Shown here one piece after another: positions 1 to 57,789 of a DNA stretch of 64,000 nt. This DNA comes from Hysterangium stoloniferum (Eukaryota > Basidiomycota > Agaricomycetes > Hysterangiales > Hysterangiaceae). The position numbers and the translations under genes are program-made. Numbering within the stretch: the first letter of the stretch is position 1; each line of letters opens with the position of its first letter. Location of the stretch: positions 124,001 through 188,000 of the forward strand of contig WHVD01000139.1 in the NCBI GenBank assembly GCA_015178975.1, read 5' to 3'. The notes beneath the pieces were generated by a model. That model saw only the letters and a list, made by a program, of their open reading frames with translations, was not told where the DNA came from and made no database searches.

Positions 1-3000
1 CGCGAATCCTTCTGTGGATAGATCTGAAATGGTGGGTTCACAGATTAAGAAATGCGTGAGTTTATCCACGGTGACAAAGATGGCGGAATAACTGCCCTCT
101 GTAGAAGGAGGCAATCCGGTAATCAGGTCCATTGAGACAACCTCAAACGGCCTTAGGGGTACATTCACGGGTCGAAGAGCTCCTTGTCAGGCGGAATGAT
201 CAATTTTAGTTTTCTGGCATATGTCGCAGTGTGAAGAGTGGTAGAAGTTCTAACCGTTCTATATACGAAGAATATCGACCGTTGAAGTACGATACCACTA
301 TGTATTGACTGTCTAAGTCTAATACGGACCGAACGCATATTGACTATGTAGTTCAATACGGTAGAGAGAAATAGCTATCTAAAGTAAGGTAGATAGCTAG
401 AATGAATAAGCAGAATCAACTGGTCAAGTACGATTCTGGATAACTGCTCGAGTGCAAGTAGAGTAGTTAGAGAGTCGAATAATAGAGTAGCGTGGATGTA
501 GTCCACACAAGTTGAGATAGGGATTGACTTTCGACTGATACAGTTCGAAACTCAGTTTGAATGAGTAGCTAAAGCCCGTCTGTGACGGTCGAGACGATAC
601 ACCAATCACAACTTACAGGACACTAACGGGTGTCTGGGTAAGTCGTGGTTGCGGTGTAAAAAGTGTCTGAGTTCTAAACTACCGGCGCTAGAATACATAA
701 GTCTGGTGTGTGTGCGCCCACCAGAGTCAATGTACCGCATACATAGGTCGTCGAACTAATTATAGGTATAATGAAAGAGAGAAAATAGAAATAATAAAGG
801 AAATATAGTAAGAGCACATCCGACTATATTTCCTGAGTGTATTTCGCCATACCTCTCACACGCAGCTGCGAGCGTACACCACGCAGTCCTGCAACATCCT
901 CGGGCAGAAGAAACAGTCTTTCATCAGATTAAAGAGCCTGTGGCCACCTGCATGAGCTCCTTCGAAAGGATTATCGTGTATCAGCTTGAGTATGGTTGTC
1001 GTCATGCTGCTAGGAATGCAGATTCAACTTTTCCAGTCCGAATCTTGAAAGAACAATAGCTTATTCTTGCCGATAAAATAATGCGAAGGAGTGGCTACCA
1101 TGTTTGGAAAAATGGGGTCAGCGGCATAATAATTCCTGAAGGTGGGATCTTTCTGGTATCCATCGCAAAGTTCCTTATCATAATTCTCATCGATCTCTAT
1201 AAGTAATTGTGGATTCGAGAGAGTAAAATCTGCCTCATCAGTCTCATCATTTCTGGGAAGGTTGTGCAAGTCCCATTTCGTTTGGGGGACCTCTTTGACG
1301 GTTCCGACAGGTTCAACTAACTCGTGATGAGTGAGAAAGACTGCCTTTTCTGCTGGTTTGTTCTCCCATAACGTCTCGTTGTCGTTCCGGTTATAAGAAT
1401 CCGCTATGATTGGTAAGAGATCGTCTCTCGCGGGGCTAGCACAGTCAGGTACTCGAGGAAGTCTAGATAATGGGTCAACACTGCTGTGTATCCGTCCTGC
1501 TCTATGTAGGATTTCCAGACCGGGGTATGCAGCGTATACCGCCCCCCATGCGGCCAGTCGACGATTAGTATTCTCGTAAGATCTGGCCCATTGTAATGCT
1601 GCATGGTCAGTGATCAAAAGGATATGTTCGCCCTCGATAAAGGGCTGGAAATGGACCAATCCTTCTTTAGCAGCTAACGCTTCTCACTCTGTGGCTGAGT
1701 AGTTACATTCCGCTTTCTTGAGCGTACGGCTCCAATAGGCGATAACGTGTTCGACTGTGACACTGGTGTCATCAAAATCTGCAGCCCAGGAATCTGTCCA
1801 GGTGAATTCCGGCTCCCTGGCTTTATAATGAGTAACAAAAATGGGGACGTCTCGTGATTGATCGAAAGCTGCCCTTGCTTGGGCATAAATTTTCGTATCC
1901 TTTAGGTCCTTAAGCGTCATTTTTTGTATTTGCTGGAGGCAACATCCCAGCGTGAAGTCCGAAGCGTCTGTGTATAACCTATAAGGCATACCGCTCGCAG
2001 GGTGTCCAAGTACTGGAGCTGAACTCAACGCAACTTTGATGTCTTCAAAAGCTCGGGCGTGTTCTGAATCCCAATGCCAACGAACGCCTTTCTTTAAGAG
2101 GTTGAAAAGTGGAGCAACCGTCCAGGAGTAGAATGGTATGTAAGCAGAGAAGTACAGAACCATTCCGAGAAAACGTTGAAGGTCTGCTATCTTAGAAGGC
2201 ATGGCTAATTCCAATATAGCGGTGACCTTTTCTTGATGGGTCGAAAAGCCGAGTCTAGACACCTTATGTCCTAGTAGTAGAATCGAATTATACCCCACGT
2301 AGCACCTTTTGGGCGAGAGAGTGATTCCCGCTGCAATGATGGCTTGTAGGACCTGGTCCAAATGCTCTAGATGATCGTCCCATGTCTTAGAAAAGATCAC
2401 GGTGTTGTCAATATAAACTAGGCAGAATATCCATTAGTAGGGTGCAAGTACGGTTTGCATAACCCTTTGGAATATAGAAGGTCCATTATGAAGTCCAAAG
2501 GGCATTCTCCTGAATTGCCACAGTCCTCGATGGGATCTGAAGGCTGTCTTTGGCTTATCTTCCTCTAACATTTCAAGTTGGGTAAAACCAGCTAGTGCAT
2601 CGAAAGAAGATAAGATGTTGGATCCCGAGAGCACCTGCATGATTTCCGACTGACACGGCAGCGGAAATTCATCGGGAACCGTTAGGCTGTTCAACTTTCT
2701 ATAGTCAATCACTACTCGTGGTTTCCCATTGCGATAGACAACAAAGGCTGGCGCCCCTCAAGGACTCTTGGATGGTTCAATCATTCCCTGTTGGAACCAA
2801 GTGTCCATTTGTTCATCAATGACTTTCCTATTAGCCGGGGAGGTTGGAAACATTGACATTGAAATAGGTTGTGCGCCATCTTTTAAGGGGACATTGACCT
2901 TGACATCTACTTGTCCTAAACGCCCGTCTACTCCAAAAGCTAGGACGTTCTTAGTTAATACTGACTCCAAGTGGGAGGAGACGTCGGTAGGGATGTCAGG

Positions 3001-4083: not shown

Positions 4084-4374
4084 AAGTCAACTGGATCGGG
4101 GGTATTGAACTCTAGGTCTTTTGCTTTCTTTTCTTGCAGCCAGTTTGACGTTCCTCCTGATACGTCTACCATTAGGTACCTTGTCGTCCGCTTCAGAGTC
4201 TGACTCATCGCAAGGAATTAAGTCGGGTAATTGCCCTGAGTCGAAGGGGAAGCTCTCCTCCTCCGATCCCTTGGACTCAGAGGGGTCTTCTATAACATAG
4301 GTTTGACTTATTTCCTTAGATCAGTTCGCAAATGCATCCTCGTCGACGATTTCCTCAATGGTGGGAGGTTCAGG

Positions 4375-7071: not shown

Positions 7072-7130
7072 TTATGTGCTTAGAAGCTTATAGTCCTAAG
7101 ATATCATTTTTTCTTCATAGGGAAAGAGCG

Positions 7131-7148
7131 GTCTGGCCCGGATCACCA
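7131..7148 (-). other. Primer-binding site of gypsy A
   Basis: One base inside the 5' LTR the element-sense strand reads TGGTGATCCGGGC. The same motif, with small changes, follows the 5' LTRs of gypsy B, gypsy E and element D, so all four probably use the same host tRNA primer. The tRNA was not identified. Confidence 0.8.
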
Positions 7149-7149
7149 C

Positions 7150-7779
7150 TGTGAAGAGTGGTAGAAGTTCTAACTGTTCTATATATGAAGAATATCGACC
7201 GTTTAGGTACAATACCACAAGGTATTGACTGTCTAAGTCTAATACAAACTGAACGTGTATTGACTACTTAGTTCAATATGGTAGAGAGAAGTAGCTATCT
7301 AAAGTAAGGTATATAGCTAGAACGAATAAGTAGAATCGACTGTTAAGTGCGATTCTGGACAACTGCTCGAGTGCAAGTAGAGTAGGTAGAGAGTCAAATA
7401 ATAAAGTAGCGTGGATGTAGTCCATGCGGGTTGAGATAAGGATTGAGTTTCGACTGGTACAGTTTGAAACTCAGATTGAGTGAGTAGCTAAAGCCCGTCT
7501 GTGACGGTCGAGATGATACACCAATCACAACTTACAGGACACTTACAGATGTCTGGGTAAGTCGTGGTTGCGGTGTAAAAAGTGTCTGAGTTCTAAACTA
7601 CGGGCACTAGAATACATAAGTCTGGCGTGTGTGCGCCCACAAGAGTCGATGTACCGCATACATAGGTTGTCGAACTAATTATAGATATAATAAAAGAGAG
7701 AAAATAGAAATAATAAAGGAAATATAGTAAGAGCTCATCCCACTATATTTCCTGAGTGTATTTCGCCATACCTCTCACA
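7150..7779 (-). repeat. 5' LTR of gypsy A (LTR-A)
   Basis: 630-bp LTR. On the plus strand it begins TGTGAAGAG and ends CCTCTCACA, so in element sense it runs TGTGAGAGG to CTTCACA. It matches the copies at 230, 21226, 23250, 41114, 50742 and 58020. The primer-binding site lies directly inside it. Confidence 0.95.
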
Positions 7780-12359: not shown

Positions 12360-12710
12360 GTGAAAATTTGCCAGTCGACGGATCCTTTCTAAAGACTAAC
12401 TATACTCAGAGATTGTCTCAGTCATTTTGGTCATTCAGGCATTTTCTATTATTTGATTTATGTATAATACCACATTTGATAGGTACCTGCTCTTCTATGG
12501 TACTATTTGATCCTGCAAACTCGTGAGGACAACATCCTTGAAGAATTCACCCGCCTGAACTCCCTGAGACAACCACAGCAATCTCCTAATCTCTCTCTCA
12601 AATGCCCCCCTTTCGCAAGATTGGTGAAGCCAGCTTCTCTGAAGTCTTCACAATAGGTTAGACGTACTTTCATATGGTCGCCAGAATAACACTCAAGCCA
12701 GCATCGACGT
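12360..12710. other. Spacer between recombinase start and minisatellite
   Basis: About 350 bp upstream of the recombinase start. The minus strand is open for some 70 codons (12503-12710), but I recognise no family, and that frame is the run-out of the minisatellite. It may hold the recombinase promoter or a further 5' exon. Confidence 0.4.
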
Positions 12711-12713
12711 TCA

Positions 12714-13446
12714 CCATTCCAGGTGCGGGTGCATAGGTGCGTAGGTGCGTTGGTGCGGGTGCATTGGTGCGGGTGCGTTGGTGCGGGTGCATTGGTGCGT
12801 AGGTGCGCTGGTGCGGGTGCATAGGTGCGCTGGTGCATTGGTGCGTAGGTGCGGGTGCATAGGTGCATTGGTGTGGGTGCATAGGTACATACGTAGGTGT
12901 GGACATGTGGGTGTGTTGGTGCAGGTGTGTGGGTGTGTTGGTGAGGGTGCATAGGTGTGTGGGTGTGGGTGCAGAGGTGCAGGTGCGTAGGTGTGGGTGC
13001 GTAGGTGCAGGTGCGTAGGTGCGGGTGCGTAGGTGCAGGTGCGTTGGTGCGTTGGTGCGTTGGTGCGGGTGCATTGGGTGTGGGTGCGTTGGGTGCGGGT
13101 GCGTTGGTGCGGGTGTGTAGGTGCGTGGGTGCCAGTGCGTGGGTGTGGGTGCAGAGGTGCAGGTGCATAGGTGCGGGTGCGTTGGTGCGGGTGCGTTGGT
13201 GCAGGTGGGTAGGTGGGTTGGTGGGTTGGTGGGTTGGTGCGGGTGCGTAGGTGCGTTGGTGCGGGTGCGTTGGGTGCGTTGGGTGCGGGTGCGTTGGTGC
13301 ATGGGTGTGTTGGGTGCAGAGGTGCAGGTGCATTGGTGGGTAGGTGCGGGTGGGTAGGTGGGTAGGTGCGTTGGTGCGGGTGCATTGGGTGTGGGTGCAT
13401 TGGGTGCGGGTGCGTTGGGTGCGGGTGTGTAGGTGCGTGTGCGTAG
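12714..13446. repeat. G/T-rich minisatellite with G-quadruplex potential
   Basis: Long array built on 6-bp steps (GGTGCG, GGTGCA, TAGGTGC) in mixed order on the plus strand. It has no stops in any minus frame, so it makes three long spurious His/Thr/Pro-rich frames. At 13207-13233 there are four GGG runs, each separated by five bases, a canonical intramolecular G-quadruplex pattern. Confidence 0.9.
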
Positions 13447-13553
13447 ATGCGCCATCCACCCTCAAATAAACTGTAAGACAAATAATATTTAAATCCGTGC
13501 AGAAATCCGTGCAGAGGTGTAGGTCCATAGTGCGGGTCCATAGGTGCGGGTGC

Positions 13554-16375: not shown

Positions 16376-17641
16376 ATCCCGACACATCTAATAAGTCACA
16401 TGACTCCAAAAATGCGCAAATTAGGGAAGGTGCTGAAAGGTAATAACTAAGTAAATAAAATATAAATACTTAGTTAAAAATTATAATAAATTAACTAAGA
16501 TATAATAGCATAATATGAGTTCATATATGCTATTATTATGCGAAGTTAAAAGGAATAAGGCCTATTTTTCACAATAAACATAATAAAAATACAATAAAAA
16601 TTTGAGAAAATATTAAATAATTCAAAGAAAATTAAGAGAATATTATGAGATGATGCTGATACATCACAAAATCCATCACTCCTGAAAAGCATTCTTCTGT
16701 TCTTTCTCTCCTCAATGAGGGGTATTCCCATTGTCAAATTCAAGCTAGGATTGGTCTGGGGAAGGGTACTATTGGCAGGATCAGTAGGGAGGTAGAGGGG
16801 GATAAGGAAAATCATCCTGGTGGCCATTCTTCCAAGCTTTCCCCTTATGATAAACAGTCAATTATCTGTCAAATCAGCTCTGGGAAGCTTGACAATGCTG
16901 TCCAAGCCACCCAATTCATAAATTCCATCATATCTACCTTTGTCACATCTCAGACTGTTAGGAATGTGTTGAAGGAAGCTGGCTTTAGGTCAGCAACAAA
17001 GAAGAAAGTCCCTTTGCTCAAGGGGTCTCATCATCAGCAATGTCCAAAGTTTGCCCAATACCATGAAAATTGGACTATGGAGGACTGGAAGAGGTTGTTG
17101 TGGACTGATGAGACAAAAATCAATAGGATTGGGTCAGATGGGAAGGCATATGTTTGGAAGCAACAAGGGGAACCAATATCAGACAGGACCACCACACCAA
17201 CTGTCAAACATGGAGGGGGAAATAACTTGATGGTTTGGGGGTGTATAGGCTGGAATGGGGTAGGAAAGCTGATAGAGGTGCAGGAGAACATGGATGCAGT
17301 ACAGTATTGTGAGATTTTGGAGGAGGGAGTGGAGGAGAGCATTGAAAGTTTGGAGATAGCTGAGGATATGTGGTCTGACAATAACATCATTCTCATGAAG
17401 TGGCCTGCCCAATACCCTGATCTAAATCCCATTGAACACCTCTTGCAATACCTCAGGGCCAAACTCCAACAATATGACATACCACCCAAAGGAGTACATG
17501 AATTATGGGACAGGTGGCAAAGGAGTGGACTGAAATACAACCAGAGACATGCCAGAAGCTAATAGAAAGCATGCCTAGGAGGATACAGGCAGTTTTAAAG
17601 GCAAAGGAGGGTCATACAAAGTATTAGATTGTAAAATAATA

Positions 17642-18345: not shown

Positions 18346-18820
18346 TGTGAAGAGTGGTAGAAGTTCAGACCGTTCTATATACGAAGAAATGAGTAGAAAG
18401 GAAAGATATTGACCTATTCGGTGCAATATAAGGGAAAGTGAGAGAAAGAGCACGAGATGACGAAGGAGTCAACGAGTGCGATGGTTCGAGTGGAGGCCTC
18501 GGCTATTACAGTTCGAGGCCAGAAGTGTTTAGTAGTTCAGATATTGCTACTTATGTAGTAGCTGACACGTTACCCTGATCACCGCTCGTAGTAGACCTAG
18601 TTTGTGTCTTTCGAGTGGTGGTTCTTGGGTTAAAGTGTGTCTGAGTTCTAATTGGTGCTGAGTGCACCCACAAGTATACACAATGCTTCGAACTAATGAA
18701 ATATGCAATATTCGAAGAATATGAAAGATAGAAAATTATGAATAGAATATGTAAAATATAAATAAAATAAAAGGAGTATTTTACCACAATGAATACTGTG
18801 ATAAAAGCATACTCCTCACA
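18346..18820 (-). repeat. Solo LTR-B nested in L
   Basis: 475-bp minus-strand copy of the element D LTR. The 5-bp duplication CAATG is at 18341-18345 and 18821-18825. Confidence 0.95.
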
Positions 18821-19696: not shown

Positions 19697-20025
19697 CTGA
19701 GCTCCTTATATACATTTCTGAGACATTTAGAAGATTCTAGGAGATTGAATGATGTCATTTAGAATTTTCTAGAATTTTCTAGAGCATTGTGGAAAGTTCT
19801 AACTACTTCTAAGACACTATAGAATGTCCTTGGCACAATAGAACATTCTGGAATCTTATAGAATATTCTACAATATTCTATCTATTATTAGTACATATTA
19901 TCTACTATTCCATTGGAAGCCACTGGAATATTCCAGGGAATTTCCGGTTTTTGCTGTAGTAGCATATATGATGACATAATGCTCTTGTGCCTGTGCGCAC
20001 GTATGACACCCTTCACATCTTGTGA

Positions 20026-20375
20026 CTGTCACATGCCTCTGTGACCTCTGTGACTGTCATGCGCCTCTGTGACCATCACACACCTCTGTGACCATTGCAC
20101 GCCTCTGTGACCGTCACGTGCCTCTGTGACTGTCACATACCTCTGTGACCATCACGTGCCTCTGTGACCGTCACGTACCTCTGTGACTGTCACGTACCTC
20201 TGTGACCATCACGTGCCTCTGTGACCATCACGTGCCTCTGTGACCATCACATGTCTCTGTGACCATCGCGTGCCTCTGTGACCGTCATGTGCCTCTGTGA
20301 CTGACCATCGCGCACGTCTGTGACCATCACATGCCTCTGTGACTGTCGTGTGCTCTTGTGACAACTGTCACTTAT
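20026..20375 (+). repeat. 19-bp palindromic array in L
   Basis: About sixteen units of the form CTCTGTGACCGTCACGTGC. Each contains GTGAC-N-GTCAC, so every unit can pair with itself and with its neighbours. Variation is mostly C/T and G/A. Confidence 0.85.
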
Positions 20376-21143: not shown

Positions 21144-21225
21144 CTGATTGATGCCTTGATCAATTTAGCCAAAGTTGTCCCAGCAGGGCTGGACAATCCT
21201 TTGTTTTGCTGGCAGGACTACAAAG

Positions 21226-21855
21226 TGTGAGAGGTATGGCGAAATACACTCAGGAAATATAGTCGGATGAGCTCTTACTATATTTCCTTTATTATTTCTA
21301 TTTTCTCTCTTTTATTATATCTATAATTAGTTCGACGACCTATATATGTGGTACATCGACTCTTGTGGATGCACACATGCCAGACTTATGTATTCTAGCA
21401 CCCGTAGTTTAGAACTCAGACACTTTTTACACCGCAACCACGACTTACCCAGACACCCATTAGTGTCCTGTAAGTTGTGATTGGTGTATCGTCTCGACCG
21501 TCACAGACGGGCTTTAGCTATCTACTCTATCAGAGTTTCGAACTGTACCAGTCGAAACTCAATCCTCATTGCTACTTGCATGGACCACATCCACGCTATT
21601 CTATTATTCGACTCTCTAGTACTCTACCTTACTCTCGAGCAGTCGTTCAGCATCGCACTAGACAGTCGATTCTACTTATTCGTTTTAGCTCTCTACTGTA
21701 TTCTAGATAGCTACTTCCTTCTACCGTATTGAACTGAGTAGTCAATACACGTTCGTTCTGTATTAGACTTTGACAGTCAATACATCTTGGTGTCGTACCT
21801 AAACGGTCGATATTCTTCGTATATAGAACGGTTAGAACTTCCACCACTCTTCACA
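21226..21855 (+). repeat. Solo LTR-A in the recombinase relic
   Basis: 630-bp plus-sense LTR-A, TGTGAGAGG to CTTCACA, with the 5-bp duplication CAAAG at 21221-21225 and 21856-21860. Confidence 0.96.
21533..21560 (+). other. Representative bulged hairpin in LTR-A
   Basis: Arm GAGTTTCGA, unpaired A, CTG, loop TAC, CAG, arm TCGAAACTC: nine plus three base pairs and one bulge. Two more of the same plan are at 21726-21748 and 21760-21783 in this LTR. Confidence 0.85.
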
Positions 21856-22072
21856 CAAAGGGGAGGTCAGACCAATAGTTAAAAAGGATTAATTCAATCC
21901 TCCAGGCTTGTGGATGGGGCACAGCCTTTGGCCACTCATTCCACATTGGTGGCACTTCTTTCTTCTTGGCACAGGGAGTCAACCCTGAGATAGTACAACT
22001 AGCTGGCAGATGGAAATCCTTAGCATATGAAACATACATAAGGGCCTTTGAACAAATCACATCATAGCACAT

Positions 22073-24223: not shown

Positions 24224-24697
24224 TGTGAGGAGTATGCTTTTACCACAGTATCATTGTGGTAAAACACTCCTTTTATTTCATTTATATCTTACATATTCTA
24301 TTCATATTTTTCTATCTTTCATATTCTTCGAATATTGCATATTTCATTAGTTCGAAGCATTGTGTATACTTGTGGGTGCACTCAGCACCAATTAGAACTC
24401 AGACACACTTTAACCCAAGAACCACCACTCGAAAGACACAAACTAGGTCTACTACGAGCGGTGATCAGGGTAACGTGTCAGCTACTACATAAGTAGCAAT
24501 ATCTGAACTACTAAACACTTCTGGCCTCGAACTGTAATAGTCGAGGCCTCCACTCGAACCATCGCACTCGTTGACTCCTTCGTCATCTCGTGCTCTTTCT
24601 CTCACTTTCTCTTATATTGCACCGATTAGGTCAATATCCTTCTTTTCTACTCATTTCTTCGTATATAGAACAGTCAGAACTTCCGCCACTCTTCACA
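24224..24697 (+). repeat. 5' LTR of element D (LTR-B)
   Basis: 474 bp, TGTGAGGAGTATGC to CCACTCTTCACA. A perfect 10-bp stem (TTTTACCACA with TGTGGTAAAA) lies close to the start. Confidence 0.97.
24614..24637 (+). other. Representative bulged hairpin in LTR-B
   Basis: Arm ATATTG, unpaired C, ACC, loop GATTA, GGT, arm CAATAT. A second at 24523-24548 has arm GGCCTCGA, unpaired A, CT, loop GTAAT, AG, arm TCGAGGCC. Confidence 0.85.
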
Positions 24698-24698
24698 G

Positions 24699-24716
24699 TG
24701 GTGATCCGGGCTGGAC
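24699..24716 (+). other. Primer-binding site of element D
   Basis: TGGTGATCCGGGC one base after the 5' LTR, identical in its first 13 bases to the gypsy A site. Confidence 0.82.
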
Positions 24717-24782
24717 CGCTCTTTCCCTATGAAGAAAATCTCTTTTATATTCAATACGAAATTCTAACTACACAGCTGCGAA

Positions 24783-26249
24783 GTGTCAACATTCGCAACT
24801 TCGCAAAACACTGTCTGGAACTTCTCGCACGCTGAGCGTTGCGAATCTGGTCAAATGGAAGGTAACTCGAACTTCAAGCAGTCGAGTCCCTTGGAAAGGC
24901 AAAATGCTCGCATCTTCATGAAGGATACACTGGTCTTCCCGCCGAGACAAGTTATGCTCAAGCATCATGGCCAACTACTTTATTCGGAGCCTGTCAATGT
25001 GAAGTGGAGCTCCTACTACACTTCTCGAGTTTCGAGGGAAAAGGTTGTCACCGCCACAAAGGATTACAAGGCAAGGTACCCATCCATGCCTACGAGAATA
25101 GCCATCTGGCTGGGAAGGTACCATGGCATCATATCGGCACAGGACTTATTCACTTGGCCTGGAACTCTCGACGAGGTAACAAAGTTGATTCCAAAGTGGT
25201 CAAACAAAGTGATGTCCTTCCGAGAAAAGGGAATAGTGGGTATCAAGATGGAATTGTTCATTCTGCTCTCCGATTTACTTTGTATGCATGATGATCTGCT
25301 ACAGATTATGCATGTATTGCTTGGAGGGGACCACATCGTGCCAAGGGTCGATACGGATTTCATATATATTCAAACATTGAAGGAATCCATATACGGTAAA
25401 CCCTCGAATGTGTGTTTCGCCTACTTTACTCTCAGGTCAAGATTGATGCACAACCTGGAGAGATGTAACAAGATGAAGGTGGAATTGCTCAGTAGATTTG
25501 ATGAGCCAGAACGAACATCTTCATCCTCCAGCTCTGGTCCCTTTGTCGAAGAATGTCCTGGAATCTATGCCAGATCAACTGCCGAAAAAGGACAGTCGTC
25601 TTTCTCGAATGTGTCTGCAGAAAAGATCACAGTCAAGGTCGTCTCCAGTTCCCCATCATCCTCAGGTCGAGATTCGCAGTGTCCTGACGAATCTCGCCAT
25701 CCATCACCTATCCATCCTATCCCATTTACTTCCCCGAGTGGACCCTCCAACAAGTCGTCCAATAGCTTGAATGATTGGGATTGCAGTAGAGGCCTGGGAA
25801 CTAGGGAGCAGAAATCAGATTATGGTATTGACGATAGAAAAGGCCCGGGACAGGACTCACCAACCAAAAGCTTTCCCATGCAGATACCACTGGGAATTCA
25901 TCGACATAAACCCCTAATCCCAGAATGGGGGGCACTGACAAAGTTTCTGCGAATGGAAGACAATCATGGACATACCACGAAGGATACTCCTCGACAGACC
26001 AAGCCGAGGACAGATACATTTCCATTCGACCCAGGACGCTCCCTTGAAAATTACATCACGTGGGGGACAATCGTTATGTTGCAAGACCATTCTGGAACAA
26101 TGATATTGCAACAGGGGGGCAGTATAGGGGGTATAGCAGAGGGCACATACGGGATCGTCACCTATGGCCAGCAAGAGCATGCTAACATCTGTATCACCAG
26201 TCTCGCCGATGGAACAGTCGAGAGCTGGGTACAGTGCATGAGCATGTAG
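24783..26249 (+). CDS. gag of element D
   Basis: Open frame of about 488 codons; the first in-frame ATG is at 24855. The N-terminal half matches the gag of gypsy A, B and E (FPPRQVMLKHH, ISAQDLFTWPG, LLGGDHIVPRVD). A serine-rich linker follows (SSSSSSGPF, SSSPSSSGR). I see no CCHC zinc knuckle, unlike gypsy A/B. It would form the particle that packages the element RNA. It looks whole. Confidence 0.85.
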   Translation: MSTFATSQNTVWNFSHAERCESGQMEGNSNFKQSSPLERQNARIFMKDTLVFPPRQVMLKHHGQLLYSEPVNVKWSSYYTSRVSREKVVTATKDYKARYPSMPTRIAIWLGRYHGIISAQDLFTWPGTLDEVTKLIPKWSNKVMSFREKGIVGIKMELFILLSDLLCMHDDLLQIMHVLLGGDHIVPRVDTDFIYIQTLKESIYGKPSNVCFAYFTLRSRLMHNLERCNKMKVELLSRFDEPERTSSSSSSGPFVEECPGIYARSTAEKGQSSFSNVSAEKITVKVVSSSPSSSGRDSQCPDESRHPSPIHPIPFTSPSGPSNKSSNSLNDWDCSRGLGTREQKSDYGIDDRKGPGQDSPTKSFPMQIPLGIHRHKPLIPEWGALTKFLRMEDNHGHTTKDTPRQTKPRTDTFPFDPGRSLENYITWGTIVMLQDHSGTMILQQGGSIGGIAEGTYGIVTYGQQEHANICITSLADGTVESWVQCMSM

Positions 26250-26259
26250 CTGCATAGGT

Positions 26260-26960
26260 GTGCTGCGTAGGTGCAAGCATATGGGTGTGGTGTGTGGAGG
26301 TGGGGTGCGGCACATGGATGCAGGTGTGGCAGTGTGCAAACGACTGTGTCACCAGTCTCGCCAAGGAAACGGTCGAGAGACGGTGCAGTGCATGAGCACA
26401 TAGCTGCACAGGTGTGAAAACACACTGTGTGGGCGCACAAACACGTTGCGCAGGCATGCAAACGAGTCGCACGGTGTACAAGCACACTGCGCGGGCGCGC
26501 GAACATGTCGCACGGTGCGCAAGCACGCTGTGCGGGCGCACGAACACACCGTGCGGGTGCGCAAGTACAATGCGCGGGTGTGTGATGGCGTGACTGCATG
26601 ACAGCGCGATGGCGCGACTGCACGAGTGCGTGACGGCGCGACTACGCAAGTGCGCCACGGCACGACTACGCAAACGCGGTCCATGTGCGTGGACGTGGAG
26701 CGTGCGTGCATGGCGCGTGGAGGTGGTGCGTACGTGGTGCGTGAAGGTGGTGTGTGTGCGCAGTGCGCAGAGGTGCGTGTGCGCGGTGCGCAGAGGTGCG
26801 TGCACGCGGTGCGCAGAGGTGGTACGTGCATGCAGTGCGCAGAGGTGGGGCGTGCGTGTGGTGCGCAGAGGTGGTGCGTGTGTGCGGTGCGCAGAGGTGG
26901 CGTGTGGATGTGGATTGGTGCGTACGCATGGTGTGTGGAGGTGGTGCGTACGCGTGGCGT
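26260..26960 (+). repeat. Two G/C-rich minisatellite blocks inside element D
   Basis: Block one (about 26400-26580): ~19-20-bp units of the type GCGCGGGCGCACGAACACAC. Block two (about 26755-26905): 23-26-bp units beginning GTGCGCAGAGGTG followed by variable GTGCGTG tracts. An imperfect 80-bp duplication (CACCAGTCTCGCC..GGTCGAGAG) at about 26198-26275 and 26347-26410 precedes them. Long Cys- or His-rich frames across them are repeat artefacts. Confidence 0.85.
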
Positions 26961-28797
26961 GTGGCTGTGCGTGCGCCACAAGGGTGCGCAAGCGCATCAG
27001 CACGTCACACGACGAGGATGAACTCATGCTTACCGCCGAAATAAGAAAAGCAACGCGAAGACGGATAAGAATAAGGAGTGGGAGGCAGAGCTGGAGAGAC
27101 ATGGAACAGAGAAGATTGATCTGTCGACTATCCCACCCCCTCTGCCCACTGAGCCGCAGCCATCCTCGTCCTCCTTTTGGGCCACTGCGCCGCTGTGCTT
27201 TGTGTTGCCCTTCTCAAAATGGCACCCTTTGTTACTCTTGAGTCAGACGAATTTGAGGGTATGCAGCGTGAGTGTACAAGTGCCGTGCATGGGCGCGGTT
27301 TGAAGGTGTATGGGTGCGGTCCATGGGTGCGGTTCAAAGGCTAAGGGGCTGACCTCCAAATCTTGTGGACACATGTGGACACATGGCCGTGTCACCTCAC
27401 AACGAAGCCTTCATGCCGTCTTCTACTCTTAGCCTTTCCCCTCTGCTGAAGCTTTGCACTGAAATAGTCAAAGCTTTGGTTGGGTGCACACTGTTCAATA
27501 ACGTCCTTCCTCAGGGTTAAAGCTTCGCACTGAAATAGTCGAAGCTTTGCCTTTCTGACCTTCGCAACTTATGGGTTCGGTGCACACTGTTCAACAAGTG
27601 TGGCTAATGGTTCAGTTCGGCTTGGGTTCAGCATGTGACATTTTTCAACAAGGTATCCATGGGTTCAGGTTTGGATTTGGAAGAAGAGAGTCTGCGACGA
27701 TAAATTCACTATCCCAGAAATTCAGCAGATCTTCAATTTCACCTCCACCTGGTGCGCTTAGCATCTTCGATGCCTACAAAATACACTCGTTGCTTGCAGT
27801 CAAATTCGCAATTCACATCAATGTGCTTGTCGCTCCCAGTCAAATTCATGAGCTTCCTTCCCACACATGTCGACACACACAGACTCTTTCCTCTCCACCC
27901 CTCCACTTTACCTTTGTCGGTGGTCGACTAGCTACAAAAGGATTCAATAACTCGCAGGACAACACTTAGATCAAATCCATCTGGACAGAACTATGCGACC
28001 CAACCTCAGTGCCATATTTGGGTCCATCATCACAATTGTACTGAACTCAGTCAATTTCGTGATTTTTTCTTTTTCCTTCAGACTCGCCCACCTACTTGAA
28101 GCATTACTGGACACTTTCTAGACCTGCCATGGGCTAGACCTTTCGGGAACACAGACTGCAACCTAACTGTGCACGATAATGGGTAATTTGCGAGATCGTG
28201 GTGGAATCACAATATCGCAAAGTGGGGGGCGGTATAGGGGGTATAGGGTATACATCCTGGCATGCTGCTAGGTCCCATAGACTAGCAGCATGGAAAGATC
28301 CTAATCCCGAGTCTTACACTATCTTGCCACAGCAAAGCATCATAAACCTCCTCCGGTACTCATTTAAGGAGGAGGAGATTCCGATGGACTCTAATGATAG
28401 CTTACCCTCCTAACCCCAAGATGCACTGCCCAACGAGTTACATGACAGTCTGTCTGCCTACAGGACATCTACTATGAGGAATGCCTCGTGTCCTGGAAGG
28501 AGACAATGTGGCAGTGTCTAGAAGGCTATCAAGTAGTCCATTTGCTGTTCGAGGACTGAAGGAGTGCTCGACTAGGGACTGAAGGAAAAGAATGGATCTA
28601 TTTTTTTTCCCCTTCCCTTCCCTCCCTTTTTCCACATCGACATATCATCCCTCACCACCCCTAAACTCACCAACCTCTCTTCAAATACTGGGGTCTTGGC
28701 ACCTTGCATTTTGGGGGGCTTCACACAAGACACCTGGGGGGCATCCCCAAAGCTTTCCAGAACTTTGTATAGCACACCCCTTCGAACTGGGGGGCAC
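26961..28797 (+). other. 3' interior of element D, unassigned
   Basis: No pol domain. A short open piece near 27035-27180 (EWEAELERHGTEK, PPPLPTEPQPSSS) looks coding-like but is unrecognised. Two bulged hairpins lie at 27449-27476 and 27520-27547. A GGGGGGCNGTATAGGGGG motif occurs at about 28216 and also near 26116. The last bases before the 3' LTR (ACTGGGGGGCAC) are the polypurine tract. Confidence 0.6.
27449..27547 (+). other. Pair of bulged hairpins with a compensatory change
   Basis: First: AAGCTTTG, unpaired C, ACT, GAAAT, AGT, CAAAGCTT. Second (27520-27547): AAGCTTCG, unpaired C, ACT, GAAAT, AGT, CGAAGCTT. The arms differ by one T-A to C-G pair swap; core and bulge are unchanged. Confidence 0.85.
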
Positions 28798-29271
28798 TGT
28801 GAGGAGTATGCTTTTACCACAGTATCATTGTGGTAAAACACTCCTTTTATTTCATTTATATCTTACATATTCTATTCATATTTTTCTATCTTTCATATTC
28901 TTCGAATATTGCATATTTCATTAGTTCGAAGCATTGTGTATACTTGTGGGTGCACTCAGCACCAATTAGAACTCAGACACACTTTAACCCAAGAACCACC
29001 ACTCGTAAGACACAAACTAGGTCTACTACGAGCGGTGATCAGGGTAACGTGTCAGCTACTACATAAGTAGCAATATCTGAACTACTAAACACTTCTGGCC
29101 TCGAACTGTAATAGTCGAGGCCTCCACTCGAACCATCACACTCGTTGACTCCTTCGTCATCTCGTGCTCTTTCTCTCACTTTCTCTTATATTGCACCGAT
29201 TAGGTCAATATCCTTCTTTTCTACTCATTTCTTCGTATATAGAACGGTCAGAACTTCCGCCACTCTTCACA
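28798..29271 (+). repeat. 3' LTR of element D (LTR-B)
   Basis: 474 bp, three mismatches to the 5' LTR by eye, followed by the TCATG duplication. Confidence 0.97.
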
Positions 29272-29276
29272 TCATG

Positions 29277-31445
29277 TCTCCCCCAGGGGGGATTCCTCTC
29301 GAGGTGTCTGAATCCGGCAACAGTTGCTCCAACAAGTCAACGAGGTCCACTGCAGAGTGGGTTGGTGTGTGGTCAGGAAGAACACAAGAAGAGTTGACAA
29401 GTAAGGACCAAAACATGGAGAGTTCCACCCGTTTGATATCCTCTGCTAAACGCAGCTGTTCCTTAGGGCCATTGACGCATAAATAAAACACACTCATGCG
29501 GTCCAACAACGTGAGAGACCCACTATACTCCTGGATATGCCCTTTAAGAAGGGGGTGCTGCAGGGTTGGTCCCAGTCACGTTAATGTGCATCCCACAGTG
29601 AAGATGTCGGAGGGGTAATTAATGGACATGCGCATCCAACTTGACTGGAAGGGACGGGAGGGGCCAGCCGTATCCTCAGAGTGGAGGGGAGAGGACGGCT
29701 GCGGCGGGGGGCTGCGAATGGGGTGGGCCAGGGGGGGTCAATGACAAGGGGCTCGTCAGCCTGAATTTCGGTTCTTCATTTCCCTTTTGCTTTTTTGCTT
29801 AAGGGGGGAGGCTCCTCGAAGACTTCCATTGCCGGGGGGGGGGGGTTCCTTGGAGACGTCTGTGGCTGAGAGAGGCGCCTCAAGGACTTCCTCCATAGGC
29901 ATTGCGAGAACTTCCAGGATAGGGTGATCAATATCCATTAATGTATCGTTAGGATGCTGAATGGGGCTTCCCAGAGAAATGCAAGGGAAGTAGGGAGAGG
30001 CGGGCGGTGGACTCCGTGTTGTCAAGGAAATGAAGGGAGTGTTCGACACCGCAGGGACCAAAGGCGTCGGAGTAGAGTGGGAGGCGACGAGAGGGTCAGG
30101 TGATGTGTGGAGGGGTGAGATTGGCCACGGTGCTGGAGAAGGCTTGGGTACAGATGCGGACGGTGATATAAGGGAATGTCCTGTGAAGGGGAGGGGTAGT
30201 GGTATAGGGGGAAGAGAAGGCAGCTCGGCGGATGGTATGAGACTTCCCGGTAACTCTGAAAAGGGTGTAAAGCGCTGTAATGTGGGTACGGAAGAGACCG
30301 GTGGAGGTGGAGGGAGATGAGAGGAACTGGATGGGGTCGCAGAGTCTGCTGGACAATACCCTCTCCAAACTCTGACGGAAGTCAGTAGCTTTCATCGTTG
30401 GTTAGGATCACTCGTGAAGAAGTGAATGTTGTCAGGGAGTAGGAAACCTTCATGGCAGTCAGCACTGAGGTACTTGCTGTCGTAGGCGGGGTAGTGAGAT
30501 TGGTTGTCCTCCGAGTCAGATGAAAGATCACCGGGGGCCCATCCGGTAGGTCCGTTCCTGAGGTCCACGTTGTGAAGGGGGGGTGGGAGGTAGTGCAACT
30601 CCATCTCCACATCACAATGCAATGCTTTGTAATTTGATCCTTCGTATTTTGTCCCAATCATAGAAGGTGACCCCATCTTTTCCTTTCCTACTTTTTTGTC
30701 CTACACTCCGAACACATGGCGTGCCCCCGTCGCTGCAATCCGTTTCAGCGAAATCTGTCCATTTATGACCTGAAGGGGGAGCGATGATTGAAGGATTATC
30801 ATGCCCTTCCATTCTCCTCCATTCCTGCCATGTCCGCCTTGAAGGGACATTATCCCTAGCCCCCATCCTCCACTGTCCTTCCAAGTACTCCTCTCTCCTC
30901 TTCCGTTTAAGCATTTTCAATTCCTCCTGGACCTGCGCAGAGAAAGCCTCAGACTGCTGTTTCTTTTTGATCTCGTCTTCGGTAGAAGGGAAAATACTAC
31001 GAGAAGGTGGTGGGGTTTCGCTCCATGTTCCCAAGGGAGCCCCCCAAGTATTAGAGGACCATGGTGCAGCTTTTGAAACGGAGTCCATCCACGTAGGATT
31101 CGTGGACGATGAGGTCTCCTCCACGCGCTCAACAGTTTCTGTTTGAGGTGATGGGGAAGAAGGAACTGTAGTTTGAGGTCGAGGTATTCTTTTAAAATTG
31201 GGAAATCGGGGTCTGGGGAGAGGAGCGTATGGAGTAAAGGCAGTTCCGTTCCCCGAGTTGGTGGACATTCCCGTGATGTCACCCTGCACAGCGGAGGGTA
31301 TTGGCAAAGGTGTTCCAGAATTACTCGTGGAGTGCTCGACTTGTTCAGTACGAGACAGCGTGGTAGAGGTATTAATCGGTTGAGGTCACGGTATTCTTTT
31401 GAAGTTGGGGAACTTGGGTTTGGGTTGTTGCTCCTGTGACATAGT
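29277..31445 (-). pseudogene. Extra coding region of gypsy B between chromodomain and 3' LTR
   Basis: Coding-like sequence on the minus strand beyond pol. The part near 31440 reads PKFPNFKRIP. A 231-codon open stretch (30612-31307) has PPPSRSIFPS, basic KKKQQ and KRKRREE tracts, and KSRKGKDGVTFYDWD. Gypsy C has matching pieces at about 45090 (SKFPKFKRIP) and 47590-47705 (SRKGKDGITFYDW). Element D has inserted in its far end; a further piece lies at 23905-24218. I recognise no domain and no signal peptide or transmembrane segment. It occupies the place where env sits in retroviruses, but nothing marks it as an envelope. Broken. Confidence 0.6.
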
Positions 31446-33896: not shown

Positions 33897-35751
33897 TTAT
33901 CCTTGAAGGCAGGCTGAAAGGAGCGGCTACCTTATTCATGAAGATTCGCACGAATCCTTCTGCGGATAGATCTGAAGTGGTGGGTTCACAGATTAAGAAA
34001 CACATGAGTTTATCCATGGCGACGAAGATGGCGGAATACGCACCCTCTGTAGAAGGAGGCAATCCGGTAATCAGGTCCATCGAGAAAACCTCAAACGGCC
34101 TTAGGGGTATATCCGTGGGTCAAAGAGCTCCTTGTCGAGCAGAATGATCAATTTTAGTTTTCTGGCATATGTCGCAGCTGTGAGCATATGCCATGCAGTC
34201 ATGCAACATCCTTGGCCAAAAGAAACGGTCTTTCATCAGCCCAAAGAGTCTGTGGCCGCCTGCATGAGCTCCTTCGAAGGGATTATCATGTATCAACTTG
34301 AGTATGGTTGTCATCATGCTACTAGGAACGCAGATTCGACTTTTCCAGTCTGAATCTCCAAAGAACAATAACTTATTCTTGCCGATGAAATAATGCGAAG
34401 GAGTAGTTACCATGTTTGGAGAAATGGGATTGGTGGCGTAATGATTTCTGAAGGTGGGATCCTTCTGGTATCCATCGCAAAGTTCCTTAGCGTAATTTTC
34501 GTCGATCTCTATAGGCAATTGTGGATTCGAGAGAGTAAAATTCACTTCATCGGTTTCATCGTTTCTGGGGAGGTTGTGCAAGTCCCATTTCATTTTGGGG
34601 ACCTCTTCCATGGTTCCGACTGGTTCGACTAACTCGTGATGAGTGAGAAAGACGGCTTTTTCCGCTGGTTTGTTCTCCCATAACGTCTCATCGTCATTCT
34701 GGTTATAAGAATCTGCTACGATCGGTAAAAGGTCGTCTCTCGCGGGGCTAGCATAGTCCGCTACTCGAGGAAGTCTGGACAGTGGGTCAACATTGCTATG
34801 TATTCGTCCTGCTCTATGTAGGATTTCCAGACCGGGGTATGCAGCGTATACCACCCCCCATGCGGCCAGTCGATGATTAGTATTCTCATAAGATCTGGCC
34901 CATTGTGACACCGCATGGTCAGTGATCAGAAGGATATGTTCACCTTCGATAAAGGGCTGGAAATGGACTAATCCTTCTTTAGCGGCTAACACTTCTCGCT
35001 CTGTGGCTGAATAGTTACATTCTGCTTTCTTGAGCATACGGCTCCAATAGGCGATAACGTGTTCGACCATGACACTGGTGTTGTCAAAATCTGCGGCCCA
35101 GGAATCCGTCCAGGTGAATTCCAGTTCCTTGGTTTTATAATGAGTAACGAAGATGGGCACGCTCGTGATTGATCGAAGGCTGCTCGTGCTTGGGCATAAA
35201 TTTTCGTATCCTTAAGGTCTTTAAGCGTCATTTTCTGTATTTGTTGGAGACAACATCCTAGCGCAAAGTCCGAAGCGTCTGTGTATAACCGATCAGGCAT
35301 ACCGCTCGCGGGGTGTACGAGTACTGGAGCTGAGCTCAACGCAACCTTGATGTCCTCAAAGCTCGGGCGTGTTCAGAATCCCAATTCCAACGAACTCCTT
35401 TCTTCAAGAGGTTGAAAAGTGGAGCGACCGTCCAGGAGTAAAATGGTATGTACGCGGAGAAGTACAGAACCTTTCCTAGAAAACATTGAAGATCTGCTAT
35501 CTTAGAAGGCGTAGCCAATTCTAATATAGCGGCGACCTTTTCTTGATGGGTCAAAAAGCCGAGTCTAGACACCTTATGTCCTAGTAGTAGAATCGAATTA
35601 AACCCCACATAGCATTTTTTGGGTGAGAAAGTGATTCCCGCAGCAATTATGGCTTGTAAAACCTGATCTAAATGTTTTAGATGATTGTCCCATGTCTTAG
35701 AAAAGATCACGATGTCGTCAATATAAACCAGGCAGAATATCCATAAGTAAG

Positions 35752-36397
35752 TGTAAAGGGTGTGCATATATGCATACCTGGACTAAGGAATAGTAGCTGG
35801 ATTATAGTACTTTATTATTTACCTTTTATTTTCTTTCTTTATATTCTTTCTATATTTCGAGCATACCTTGATTTTGTAGTTCGAAGCTTTGTGTATACGT
35901 ATGGGCGCTCTCAGCGCCAAAAGAGACAGACAACTTTTACCCAGCAGACACCACCTCGTAAACGACCCAGACGTCGAATAGCGAGAGGTGTCAAGGGTAA
36001 CGTTTCAACTACCTTTAAAAGGTAGTATTCTCTTGCATACTAACGTACTTCAGACTCGAACCGCAAAGGTCGAGTTCCAATCTAAGGTCTTTGCGCTAGT
36101 CGACATTATAGTCGACTCACGCTATTATTTCTTTACTTTAGATATTCAGCTTCGCGTTGATTATCTATTTTACATCTAGCTACGAGTTGTACCGTGAAGG
36201 TCAACTCTTTCATTCTTTCATTCTAGCCGTCAAGAGCAACTGTACAGTTGCTCTTGTGACACATAGCGTGTCTTCTTACTAGTACAGCTTGTCTAGTAAT
36301 CTACAGTATTGTACTGTACGGTCAATATCTGCTAATAGTAGTTGAATAGACACTATTCTTCGTATATCGAACAGTCAGAATCTATCGACTCTTCACA
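35752..36397 (+). repeat. Solo LTR-C in gypsy B RT
   Basis: 646 bp beginning TGTAAAGGG (TGTGAAGGG in other copies) and ending CGACTCTTCACA. The 5-bp duplication GTAAG is at 35747-35751 and 36398-36402. Contains a bulged hairpin at 36184-36207 and a 26-bp perfect palindrome at 36231-36256 with centre CTGTACAG. Confidence 0.95.
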
Positions 36398-55441: not shown

Positions 55442-56083
55442 TGTGAAGGGTATGCCTATATGCATAATTGGACAGTGGATTAATATGCATATTATAGTAC
55501 TTTATTATCTAGTTTCTATTCCTTTTCTTTAATTCTCTATATCCTTCGAGCATACCCATATTTCTTAGTTGGAAGTCTTGTGTATACCTATGGGTGCTCT
55601 CAGCGCCAAAAGACAGACATCTTTTTACCCAACAGACACCACCTCGTAAATGACCCAGACGTCGAATAGCGAGAGGTGTCAAGGGTAACGTCTCAACTAC
55701 CTATAAAGGTAGCATTTTCTCGCATACTAACAGACTTTGGACTCGAACCGCAAAAGTCGAGTTCCACTCTAAGGTCTTTGTGCTCGTCGACACTATAGTC
55801 GACTCGCACTACTATCTCTTTACTTTAGATATTCAGCCTCTCGTGATTATCTATTTTACATCTAGCTACGAGTTGTACCGTAAAGGTCAACTCTTTCATT
55901 CTCTCATTCTAGCCGTCAAGAGCAACTGTACAGTTGCTCTTGTGACGTGTAGCGTGTCTCCTTGCTAGTACTGTCAGTCTAGTAATCTACAGTATTGCAC
56001 TGAACGGTCAATACCTGCTAATAGTAGTTGAATAAACACTACACTTCATACATTGAACGGTCAGAATCTATCGACTCTTCACA
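55442..56083 (+). repeat. Solo LTR-C nested in P
   Basis: 642 bp, 5-bp duplication ATCAG at 55437-55441 and 56084-56088. Bulged hairpin at 55870-55893: GAGTTG, unpaired T, ACC, GTAAA, GGT, CAACTC. Palindrome GAGCAACTGTACAGTTGCTC at about 55920. Confidence 0.96.
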
Positions 56084-57145: not shown

Positions 57146-57789
57146 TGTGAAGAGTCGATAGATTCTGACCATTCAATATACAAAGTATATAGCGTTTATT
57201 CAACTACTACTAGCAGGTATTGACCGTTCAGTATAATACCATAGATTACTAGACTGGCCATACTAGTAAGGAGACACGCAACACGTCACAAGAGCAACTG
57301 TACAGTTGCTCTTGACAGCTAGAATGAAGAATGAAAGAGTTGACCTTCACGGTACAACTCGTAGCTAGACGTAAGATAGATAATCAACGAGAGGTTGAAT
57401 ATCTAAAGTAAAGGGATAATAGCGCGAGTCGACTATAATGTCGACAAGCGCAAAGACCTTAGAGTGGAACTCAACCTTCGCGGTTCGAGTCCAAAGTCTG
57501 TTAGTATGCGAGAGAACACTACCTTTATAGGTAGTTGAGACGTTACCCTTGACACCTCTCGCTATTCGACATCTGGGTCATTTATGAGGTGGTGTCTGTT
57601 GGGTAAAAAGTGTCTATTGTTTGGCGCCGAGAGCGCCCATACGTATACACAAAGCTTTGAACTACAAAATAAGGGTATGCTCGAAATATAGAAAGAATGT
57701 AAATGAAGAAAATAAAAAGTAAATAATAAAGTACTATAATCCAACTATTATTCCTTAGTCCAATTATGCATATATGCATACCCTTCACA
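57146..57789 (-). repeat. Solo LTR-C nested in P, minus strand
   Basis: 644 bp, 5-bp duplication CCAAG at 57141-57145 and 57790-57794. It ends, in plus reading, with the palindrome GCATATATGC and CCCTTCACA. Confidence 0.95.

Follow-up and report, generated by a model that had tools for sequence, protein, structure and literature searches.

The operator of MS2-type phages is an RNA hairpin with an ANYA tetraloop, a 2-bp upper stem and a bulged A, which is bound by a dimer of the coat protein. Another phage element, the boxB RNA of lambda, which acts in antitermination, has a GNRA-like five-base loop on a short stem. The packaging signals of gammaretroviruses include a pair of GACG hairpins, located in the leader RNA, that serve both dimer formation and packaging.

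We analyzed a 64,000-bp region of the genome of Hysterangium stoloniferum (contig WHVD01000139.1; referred to below as the window, with coordinates counted from its first base), in which the long terminal repeats (LTRs) of retrotransposons carry trains of hairpins built on one plan. They share with the MS2 operator the short hairpin form, a single unpaired base on the 5′ side, a tolerant lower stem and a small loop. They differ from it in the upper stem (3 bp, ACY/RGT), in the loop, which is often GNRAN (4-5 bases) and not an ANYA tetraloop, in the bulged base (A, T or C, seldom G), and in being carried by a retrotransposon instead of a phage. The five-base GNRA-like loop recalls boxB, which, however, has no one-sided bulge. 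The gammaretroviral GACG pair also consists of repeated small hairpins, but differs in loop sequence, bulge and copy number.

The distributed packaging signals of RNA phages (PMC4751978, accessible part) likewise come in several degenerate copies per genome, and the accessible part of PMC3601003 speaks of retroviruses whose long R regions contain conserved stem-loops. For Ty1 and Ty3, the available text of PMC4974528 states that neither the packaging sequences nor the Gag sites are precisely defined. The fungal hairpins resemble the signals of these two yeast elements in that they belong to LTR retrotransposon RNA, whose cis signals lie near the ends (available parts of PMC4974528 and PMC11381356), and their presence in LTR and pol parallels the dependence of Ty3 packaging on UTRs or POL (same part of PMC4974528); those parts of PMC4974528 and PMC11381356, however, do not describe a train made up of one repeated hairpin. 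The Conserved Hairpin Site of the GalEa Copia elements is likewise an LTR-adjacent hairpin of fungal LTR retrotransposons that is kept across families, but in the accessible text of PMC5445492 it is a single hairpin with an A/A mismatch, placed directly after the 5′ LTR, where it replaces the primer site. In contrast, the gypsy element analyzed here has several hairpins inside the LTR as well as a primer-site-like stretch. Cis-acting RNA structures of retroelements are a known class; no description of such hairpins was found in searches of open PubMed Central papers, and as far as these went the repeated bulged-hairpin form appears to be new.

Bulged hairpins in the LTRs of the window

The window is rich in retroelements. 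All seven hairpins named in the original prediction were found, at the predicted positions or at most one base away. The LTR-A copy at 21225..21856 (+ strand, which is also the element sense) has the ends TGTGAG...CTCTTCACA and contains the following bulged hairpins, all on the + strand: (i) A-h1 (21533..21560; GAGTTTCG-a-ACTG(TAC)CAGT-CGAAACTC), with a pair probability of 0.95 in the LTR fold and pairs that covary, (ii) A-h2 (21652..21670; ATCG-c-ACT..AGT-CGAT), whose pair probability in this copy is 0.09 and which has 7-bp arms in several other copies, (iii) A-h4 (21726..21748; GTATTG-a-ACT(GAGT)AGT-CAATAC), with a probability of 0.00 in the whole-LTR fold, where it competes with A-h5, (iv) A-h5 (21759..21784 with its full arm, named earlier as 21760-21783; TGTATT-a-GACT(TTGAC)AGTC-AATACA), which is subject to the same competing pairing in that fold, and (v) A-h6 (21791..21812; TGTCG-t-ACC(TAAAC)GGT-CGATA), with one G.U pair. 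Two further LTR-A copies, both on the − strand, form the ends of a gypsy element spanning 230-7779. One lies at 230..860 and the other at 7150..7779, with hairpin cores at 7352, 7276 and 7212. A perfect or near-perfect inverted repeat without a bulge (TAGCTATCTA..TAGATAGCTA) is present among the bulged hairpins of LTR-A at 21686-21713 and is also kept in its homologues.

The 5′ LTR-B (24224..24697, +) of a 5-kb element (24224-29271) contains hairpins B-h1 (24523..24548, +; GGCCTCG-a-ACT(GTAAT)AGT-CGAGGCC) and B-h2 (24614..24637, +; ATATTG-c-ACC(GATTA)GGT-CAATAT), with pair probabilities of 0.94 and 0.97, respectively. The same two hairpins occur at 29097-29122 and 29188-29211 in the 3′ LTR-B (28798..29271, +), and an LTR-B copy on the − strand (18346..18820) carries a bulged hairpin at 18406-18429.

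LTR-C is represented by a copy at 35752..36397 (+), flanked by a 5-bp duplication (GTAAG), and by copies at 55448..56083 (+) and 57146..57783 (−). The first contains, on the + strand, hairpins at 36054..36075 (ACTCG-a-ACC(GCAAA)GGT-CGAGT; pair probability 0.71), 36184..36207 (GAGTTG-t-ACC(GTGAA)GGT-CAACTC; 0.99) and 36276..36299 (TTACTAG-t-ACA(GCT)TGT-CTAGTAA; 0.92). The second has hairpins at 55870..55893 (+; GAGTTG-t-ACC(GTAAA)GGT-CAACTC) and 55992..56014 (+; GTATTG-c-AC(TGAACG)GT-CAATAC, or ACT..GGT if the closing pair is U.G), and the third a bulged hairpin at 57337-57360. Perfect or near-perfect unbulged inverted repeats, which are also kept, lie between the bulged hairpins of LTR-C (36231-36256, 55917-55942 and 57289-57314; CAAGAGCAACT-GTAC-AGTTGCTCTTG). 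The number of bulged hairpins per LTR differs, amounting to 2 in LTR-B and about 4-5 in LTR-A and LTR-C.

Excess over chance and orientation

Six representative LTRs (3,500 nt in element sense) were scanned for hairpins with an arm of at least 5 bp, an inner stem of 2-4 bp and a loop of 3-5 bases, and were compared with 60 dinucleotide shuffles. Hairpins with one 5′-side bulge were found 16 times, as against a shuffle mean of 1.07 (sd 1.08, maximum 4), whereas the mirror type, with one 3′-side bulge, was found once (1.12 expected). Two-base bulges numbered 0 on the 5′ side (0.98 in shuffles) and 3 on the 3′ side (0.88). Hairpins with a 1x1 mismatch (4 vs 0.77) and those with no bulge (6 vs 0.65) were enriched as well. 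The 18 LTR segments of the window together contain 39 hairpins with one 5′ bulge and 2 with one 3′ bulge; because the segments were delimited by sequence similarity and include incomplete ones and near-duplicates, the 39 are not independent events. There was no excess in the remaining 53,651 bases of the window, where the counts on the two strands were 33 and 26 for the 5′ bulge and 26 and 33 for the 3′ bulge. An equal density of such hairpins in shuffled sequence or in non-LTR DNA, which would have spoken against the original prediction, was thus not observed.

The orientation of the hairpins is also one-sided. A slightly looser form of the core, combined with a closing-pair filter, has 43 matches in the window, of which 39 lie in LTRs, all in element sense and none in antisense, and 4 lie outside LTRs; the reversed core, searched without that filter, has 2. 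In the whole genome (111 Mb in 554 contigs) the core TYGNACYN{3,5}RGTCRA has 9,317 matches and the reversed pattern 577. The LTR 3′ end motif, allowing up to 3 mismatches, was found 2,363 times in the genome and its reversed form 0 times.

A conserved core on freely pairing arms

The original prediction held that the arms are unrelated between hairpins, while the bulge position and inner stem are kept. This applies to the outer arms, which are free in sequence, but it understated how alike the hairpins are, because the core, including the loop, has a consensus. The plan can be sharpened to arm-TYG-n-ACY-(often GNRAN)-RGT-CRA-arm.

The consensus was tabulated from 75 distinct hairpins with a 5-base loop and an inner AC, taken from loci outside the window on both strands, which were chosen to pair in their arms with no more than one G.U. 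Above the free arm, the 5′ side reads T (74/75), Y and G (73/75), followed by one unpaired base (A 31, T 21, C 16, G 7). After the bulge come A-C, Y and the loop G (52) N R (71) A (60) N, and the 3′ side continues with R, G-T, C (69), R and A (74).

Pairing beyond the core was measured at 224 distinct sites selected by the core only. Offsets 1-4 outward are paired in 90, 91, 71 and 52% of them, as compared with 34, 40, 54 and 27% for shuffled partners of the same sites; from offset 5 to offset 12 the set as a whole shows little or no excess. At offset 1 each of the four Watson-Crick pair types is represented (AT 107, CG 46, TA 32, GC 17). When 291 sites were merged by their flanks into 22 clusters, offsets 1-4 paired in 77, 50, 59 and 45%, against 30, 31, 32 and 23% in the control (0 of 5,000 shuffles, P 0.038, 0.0016 and 0.016, respectively), a conservative count, since 190 of the 291 sites fall into a single cluster and chance matches make up some of the others.

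Conservation and covariation

We aligned 32 LTRs of family A and its sister family A′ and scored six helices, of which five are bulged and the sixth has a 1x1 mismatch, comprising 58 pairs. Pairing is present in 94.3% of cells, vs 24-37% for slid partners, a comparison that favours the scored structure, which was taken from two of the 32 copies. Changes on both sides of a pair were observed in 44 cells (14.9 in shuffles; 0 of 500 as high) and involve 13 pairs (9.4 in shuffles; 12 of 500 as high), and the number of further pair types in these 32 LTRs was not above that of shuffles (223 of 500). Among pairs formed by at least 30% of copies, to which this test was confined, paired columns are less variable than unpaired ones in all three families (A 0.032 vs 0.067, B 0.009 vs 0.026, C 0.037 vs 0.065). 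In unpaired columns C-to-T and G-to-A changes are nearly equal (0.081/0.084 in A, 0.030/0.030 in B and 0.090/0.081 in C).

The excess over chance, the side of the bulge (39 vs 2), the lower variability of paired columns and the kept arm pairs all argue for a selected structure, as originally proposed, and we consider it very probable that the hairpins are one. The further claim, that the structure arose by selection rather than by repeat descent, stands only in part: the shared core permits a single ancestral hairpin followed by compensating drift of the arms.

Element families carrying the hairpins

Based on the Pfam domains above cut-off in the ORFs of two element copies (RVT_1, RT_RNaseH, RT_RNaseH_2 and Integrase_H2C2, the first of these in the second copy only), LTR-A can be assigned to a Ty3/gypsy-like element. 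A zinc knuckle of this element scored 20.1 bits, just under the cut-off of 20.8. The LTR ends are TGTGA..TTCACA, and LTR-A and LTR-B are both followed by TGGTGATCCGGGC. The primer-binding-site-like stretch (TGGTGATCCGGGC...), located at 24698..24720 (+) after LTR-B, is common to A, A′, B′ and D; with no more than 3 mismatches, TGGTGATCCGGGC follows the LTR at loci L100, L111 and L118. The start of a short upstream reading frame, CCCTATGAAGAAAA, is found just after this stretch (24725-24738), and likewise after LTR-A.

The LTR-B element contains a Gag-like ORF (24783..26249, +), whose product shares 41% identity over 80 aa and 47% over 116 aa with those of the first ORFs of LTR-A elements. Its sole database match is a protein of H. 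stoloniferum (59% identity). The few named matches of pol, among those listed (at least 120, most of them without an organism name), include Rhodofomes, Hypsizygus and Hericium, all Agaricomycetes, so that these matches point to an agaricomycete-like host. In the one copy of the LTR-B element that was searched (24224-29271), the 5 stop-to-stop ORFs of at least 150 aa included no match to any Pfam family and hence no recognizable pol. The genome has at least 40 LTR-B copies with 97-100% identity to this one. LTR-B thus looks like a recent Gag-only, non-autonomous family. LTR-C is placed in the Ty3/gypsy lineage provisionally, by its similar LTR ends and hairpin core only.

A further 35 short stretches at core matches were read. 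Besides A and C copies, the plan was recognized in A′ (L093, L094, L096, L101, L107, L108 and L118, and, with decayed arms, the A′-like L095 and L120), in B′ (L099, L111) and in D (L100, L106, L116, L117). About a dozen of the 35 are coding DNA or chance. Core matches in gag-like coding DNA (L103, L112, L113, L121, L122, and 31353 of the window) were rejected, because RTExVE codons give the same letters; in matches of this type the arms end one pair beyond the core. The − strand of the window contains, at 29756-31385, proline/serine-rich gag-like ORFs with repeated RTExVE, and two window ORFs there have no Pfam match. Loci L089, L091, L092, L098, L105 and L119 are single matches whose arms extend by 0-2 pairs and were attributed to chance, as was the match at 16905 of the window.

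Hairpins in the LTR-B interior and in pol

Two hairpins of the same plan lie inside the LTR-B element but outside its LTRs, where no reading frame reaches 150 aa: 27449..27476 (+; AAGCTTTG-c-ACT(GAAAT)AGT-CAAAGCTT, core match 27454) and 27519..27548 (+; AAAGCTTCG-c-ACT(GAAAT)AGT-CGAAGCTTT, core match 27525), with arms of 8 and 9 bp. A third internal hairpin of this kind (28034..28056, +; AATTG-t-ACTG(AACT)CAGT-CAATT) is known from the window copy. Stretches picked in other LTR-B elements by their offset from the LTRs held the internal-hairpin region in 0 of 20 cases; a similarity search placed the internal stretch at 40 scored places in the genome. Both hairpins are present in 4 of the 4 homologues read, and compensated pairs, changed on both sides, were found at L165 (A-T for G-C) and L166 (G-C for A-T), with one such change in the second hairpin. 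At L164 and L166 this second hairpin contains a single G.U or C.A, and at L110 one hairpin is intact and one decayed.

A hairpin of the same plan is also present in RNase H-integrase coding DNA of pol (34332..34357, −; AGATTC-a-GACT(GGAAA)AGTC-GAATCT). This hairpin of the A element was recognizable in all 20 copies that were read from a list of 150. Only 11 of the 20 have G-C directly below the bulge, and only 12 have C-G as the next pair, a loss that looks like CpG decay. At L126 a G-C pair has been replaced by T-A on both sides, and the related element at L030 has C-G for T-A. Since the letters here are constrained by the amino acids, selection on the pol hairpin is only suggested. The TTGGACTGGAAAAGTC.. 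matches (L114, L115), which had the look of a separate family, belong to the pol coding region of the A element, and that reading was rejected.

RNA or DNA

Folds of 29 LTR copies were more stable than those of their shuffles, with mean z values of -6.8 (A), -3.9 (A′), -7.2 (B) and -5.4 (C) for the sense strand, and -5.9, -1.8, -7.0 and -4.0, respectively, for the antisense strand. The strong folding of the sense RNA relative to shuffled LTRs, which the earlier analysis had pointed to as a test, was thus observed, but it does not by itself show these particular hairpins. In folds of four LTRs (A, A′, B, C), from whose scoring A-h6 and three chance-like small hairpins were left out, 8 of 13 plan hairpins have a mean pair probability above 0.9, one has 0.71 and four are below 0.1; these four, three of them in LTR-A, lose to other pairings.

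The hairpin zone is poor in ATG, with the cut points set by eye: 3.5 per kb after base 175 of LTR-A vs 31 before, 7.7 vs 24 on the two sides of the cut point in A′, 0.97 after base 20 of LTR-B, and 3.7 after base 150 of LTR-C vs 24 before. Depletion relative to shuffles, in one copy each, gave P = 0.15, 0.27, 0.006 and 0.03 (A, A′, B, C). The ATG-poor zone would fit an untranslated leader, and the pyrimidine-rich stretch ahead of it would suit a putative fungal start region. The part of the LTR that carries the hairpins may be transcribed as the 5′ leader.

Wobble tests for the sense strand were mixed overall. At the closing pair, U.G was found 1,346 times (control 150) and C.A 222 times (control 147); at the second arm pair below the bulge the corresponding numbers are nearly even, 851 (control 171) and 726 (control 93). 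In a sample over all pairs, G.U and A.C numbered 72 and 53 where no CpG was involved and 78 and 55 in CpG contexts, and interior pairs gave 18 vs 24 in A, 12 vs 6 in B and 68 vs 23 in C. The closing-pair excess is ambiguous, since the C of ACC-G is often in a CpG; the difference may come from CpG decay, and wobble asymmetry was therefore dropped as proof of RNA. The copies in the element interior and the arms of free sequence speak for RNA, and it is likely that the hairpins are read at the RNA level and not as DNA.

Possible function of the hairpins

We favour the explanation that a single lineage of Ty3/gypsy-type retrotransposons has conserved these hairpins as RNA structures, which would act in the sense RNA, with several sites per molecule: in the LTR, in the LTR-B interior and probably once in pol. 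Each hairpin may be a binding site, whose protein would read the one-base 5′ bulge, the short upper stem (ACY/RGT) and the small loop; of the lower arm, nothing more than pairing would be required. A bulge, upper stem and loop kept on a free stem are what is expected of a protein that reads both sequence and shape, and the sense-oriented copies in LTRs, interior and perhaps pol suggest a site placed in the element RNA. The likeliest reader would be the element's own Gag, and the train of sites would select and condense the genomic RNA for packaging, both in the autonomous A element and in the apparently Gag-only B. Gag is the obvious candidate because LTR-B, seemingly without pol, must nevertheless be packed and shares a related Gag-like protein with LTR-A, and because Ty3 packaging depends on UTR or POL sequences (accessible part of PMC4974528). 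We give the explanation as a whole (sense-RNA hairpins bound, most likely by Gag, for packaging) about an even chance; Gag itself is proposed as the reader tentatively, at somewhat less than that. A bolder version, in which degenerate hairpins across the LTR leader, the non-coding interior and pol form a phage-like packaging code read by one Gag, and the Gag-only LTR-B relatives travel by the same code, is possible but rather doubtful.

The main rival to Gag is a host RNA-binding protein, i.e. an RNA-binding or export/stability factor through which the elements would have their RNA exported from the nucleus, translated or stored. One shared reader of this kind would explain why the same core occurs in several LTR families and in the LTR-B interior. 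However, non-LTR DNA of the window has no hairpin excess, and the four isolated core matches among the few that were read (L091, L092, L098, L119), which resemble no other sequence family retrieved, lack matching arms and thus give no hint that host genes use the hairpin. We regard a host reader as rather unlikely. It is less probable still that the hairpins regulate the leader without any sequence-reading protein, for instance in gag translation (e.g. shunting), reverse transcription or RNA dimer formation. The strong overall folding of the LTR RNA would fit such a role, as would the ATG-poor zone together with the short upstream reading frame start after the primer site, but it accounts neither for the sequence kept in bulge, upper stem and loop nor for the copies in the LTR-B interior.

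A role of the DNA itself, as double-stranded protein sites or promoter cruciforms, appears improbable. The fixed core could be read by a DNA-binding dimer and the wobble asymmetry is weak after correction for CpG; on the other hand, the arms pair without fixed sequence beyond the core, the one-sided bulge makes the half sites unequal, and copies are present in the element interior and in pol. The conserved hairpins of the LTR-B interior, in particular, lower the odds of a role purely as promoter or transcription-factor sites and are in keeping with one in RNA. Finally, quasi-palindromes without any function could be made or repaired by snap-back template switching of reverse transcriptase. Such repair would yield paired changes, and the same LTRs contain unbulged perfect inverted repeats above the level of shuffles (6 vs 0.65); yet it would also remove the bulge, which in 39 of the 41 hairpins with a one-base bulge has stayed on the same side, and would not conserve core and loop, which makes this origin highly improbable.

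These hairpins bear on the question of where Gag takes hold of LTR-retrotransposon RNA. Their thousands of natural copies amount to a mutagenesis that separates the kept parts (bulge, upper stem, loop) from those that merely pair, and natural variants with controls offer a ready plan for a binding assay. If Gag is the partner, this would be the first distributed hairpin code in such an element within the open PubMed Central literature; should a host protein be the partner instead, they would lead to a mushroom RNA-binding protein worth finding.

Other features of the window

No tRNA genes were detected in the window, and Rfam had no matches in it; for one LTR-A and one LTR-C copy the sole Rfam matches with E up to 1 scored 17.8 and 15.2 bits, far below the cut-offs. 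The translations of 10774-11271 (−) and about 21900-22070 (+) resemble the tyrosine-recombinase ends of Crypton-like elements; the ORF at 10774-11271 (−) had no Pfam match. An ORF at 16660-17562 (+) encodes a Tc1/mariner-like transposase, with scores of 29.3 bits for HTH_Tnp_Tc3_2 and 27.0 bits for DDE_3 that each fall slightly short of the Pfam cut-off. The window also contains a GGTGC-type minisatellite (12700-13450) and a tandem array of a 19-bp unit (20006-20339).
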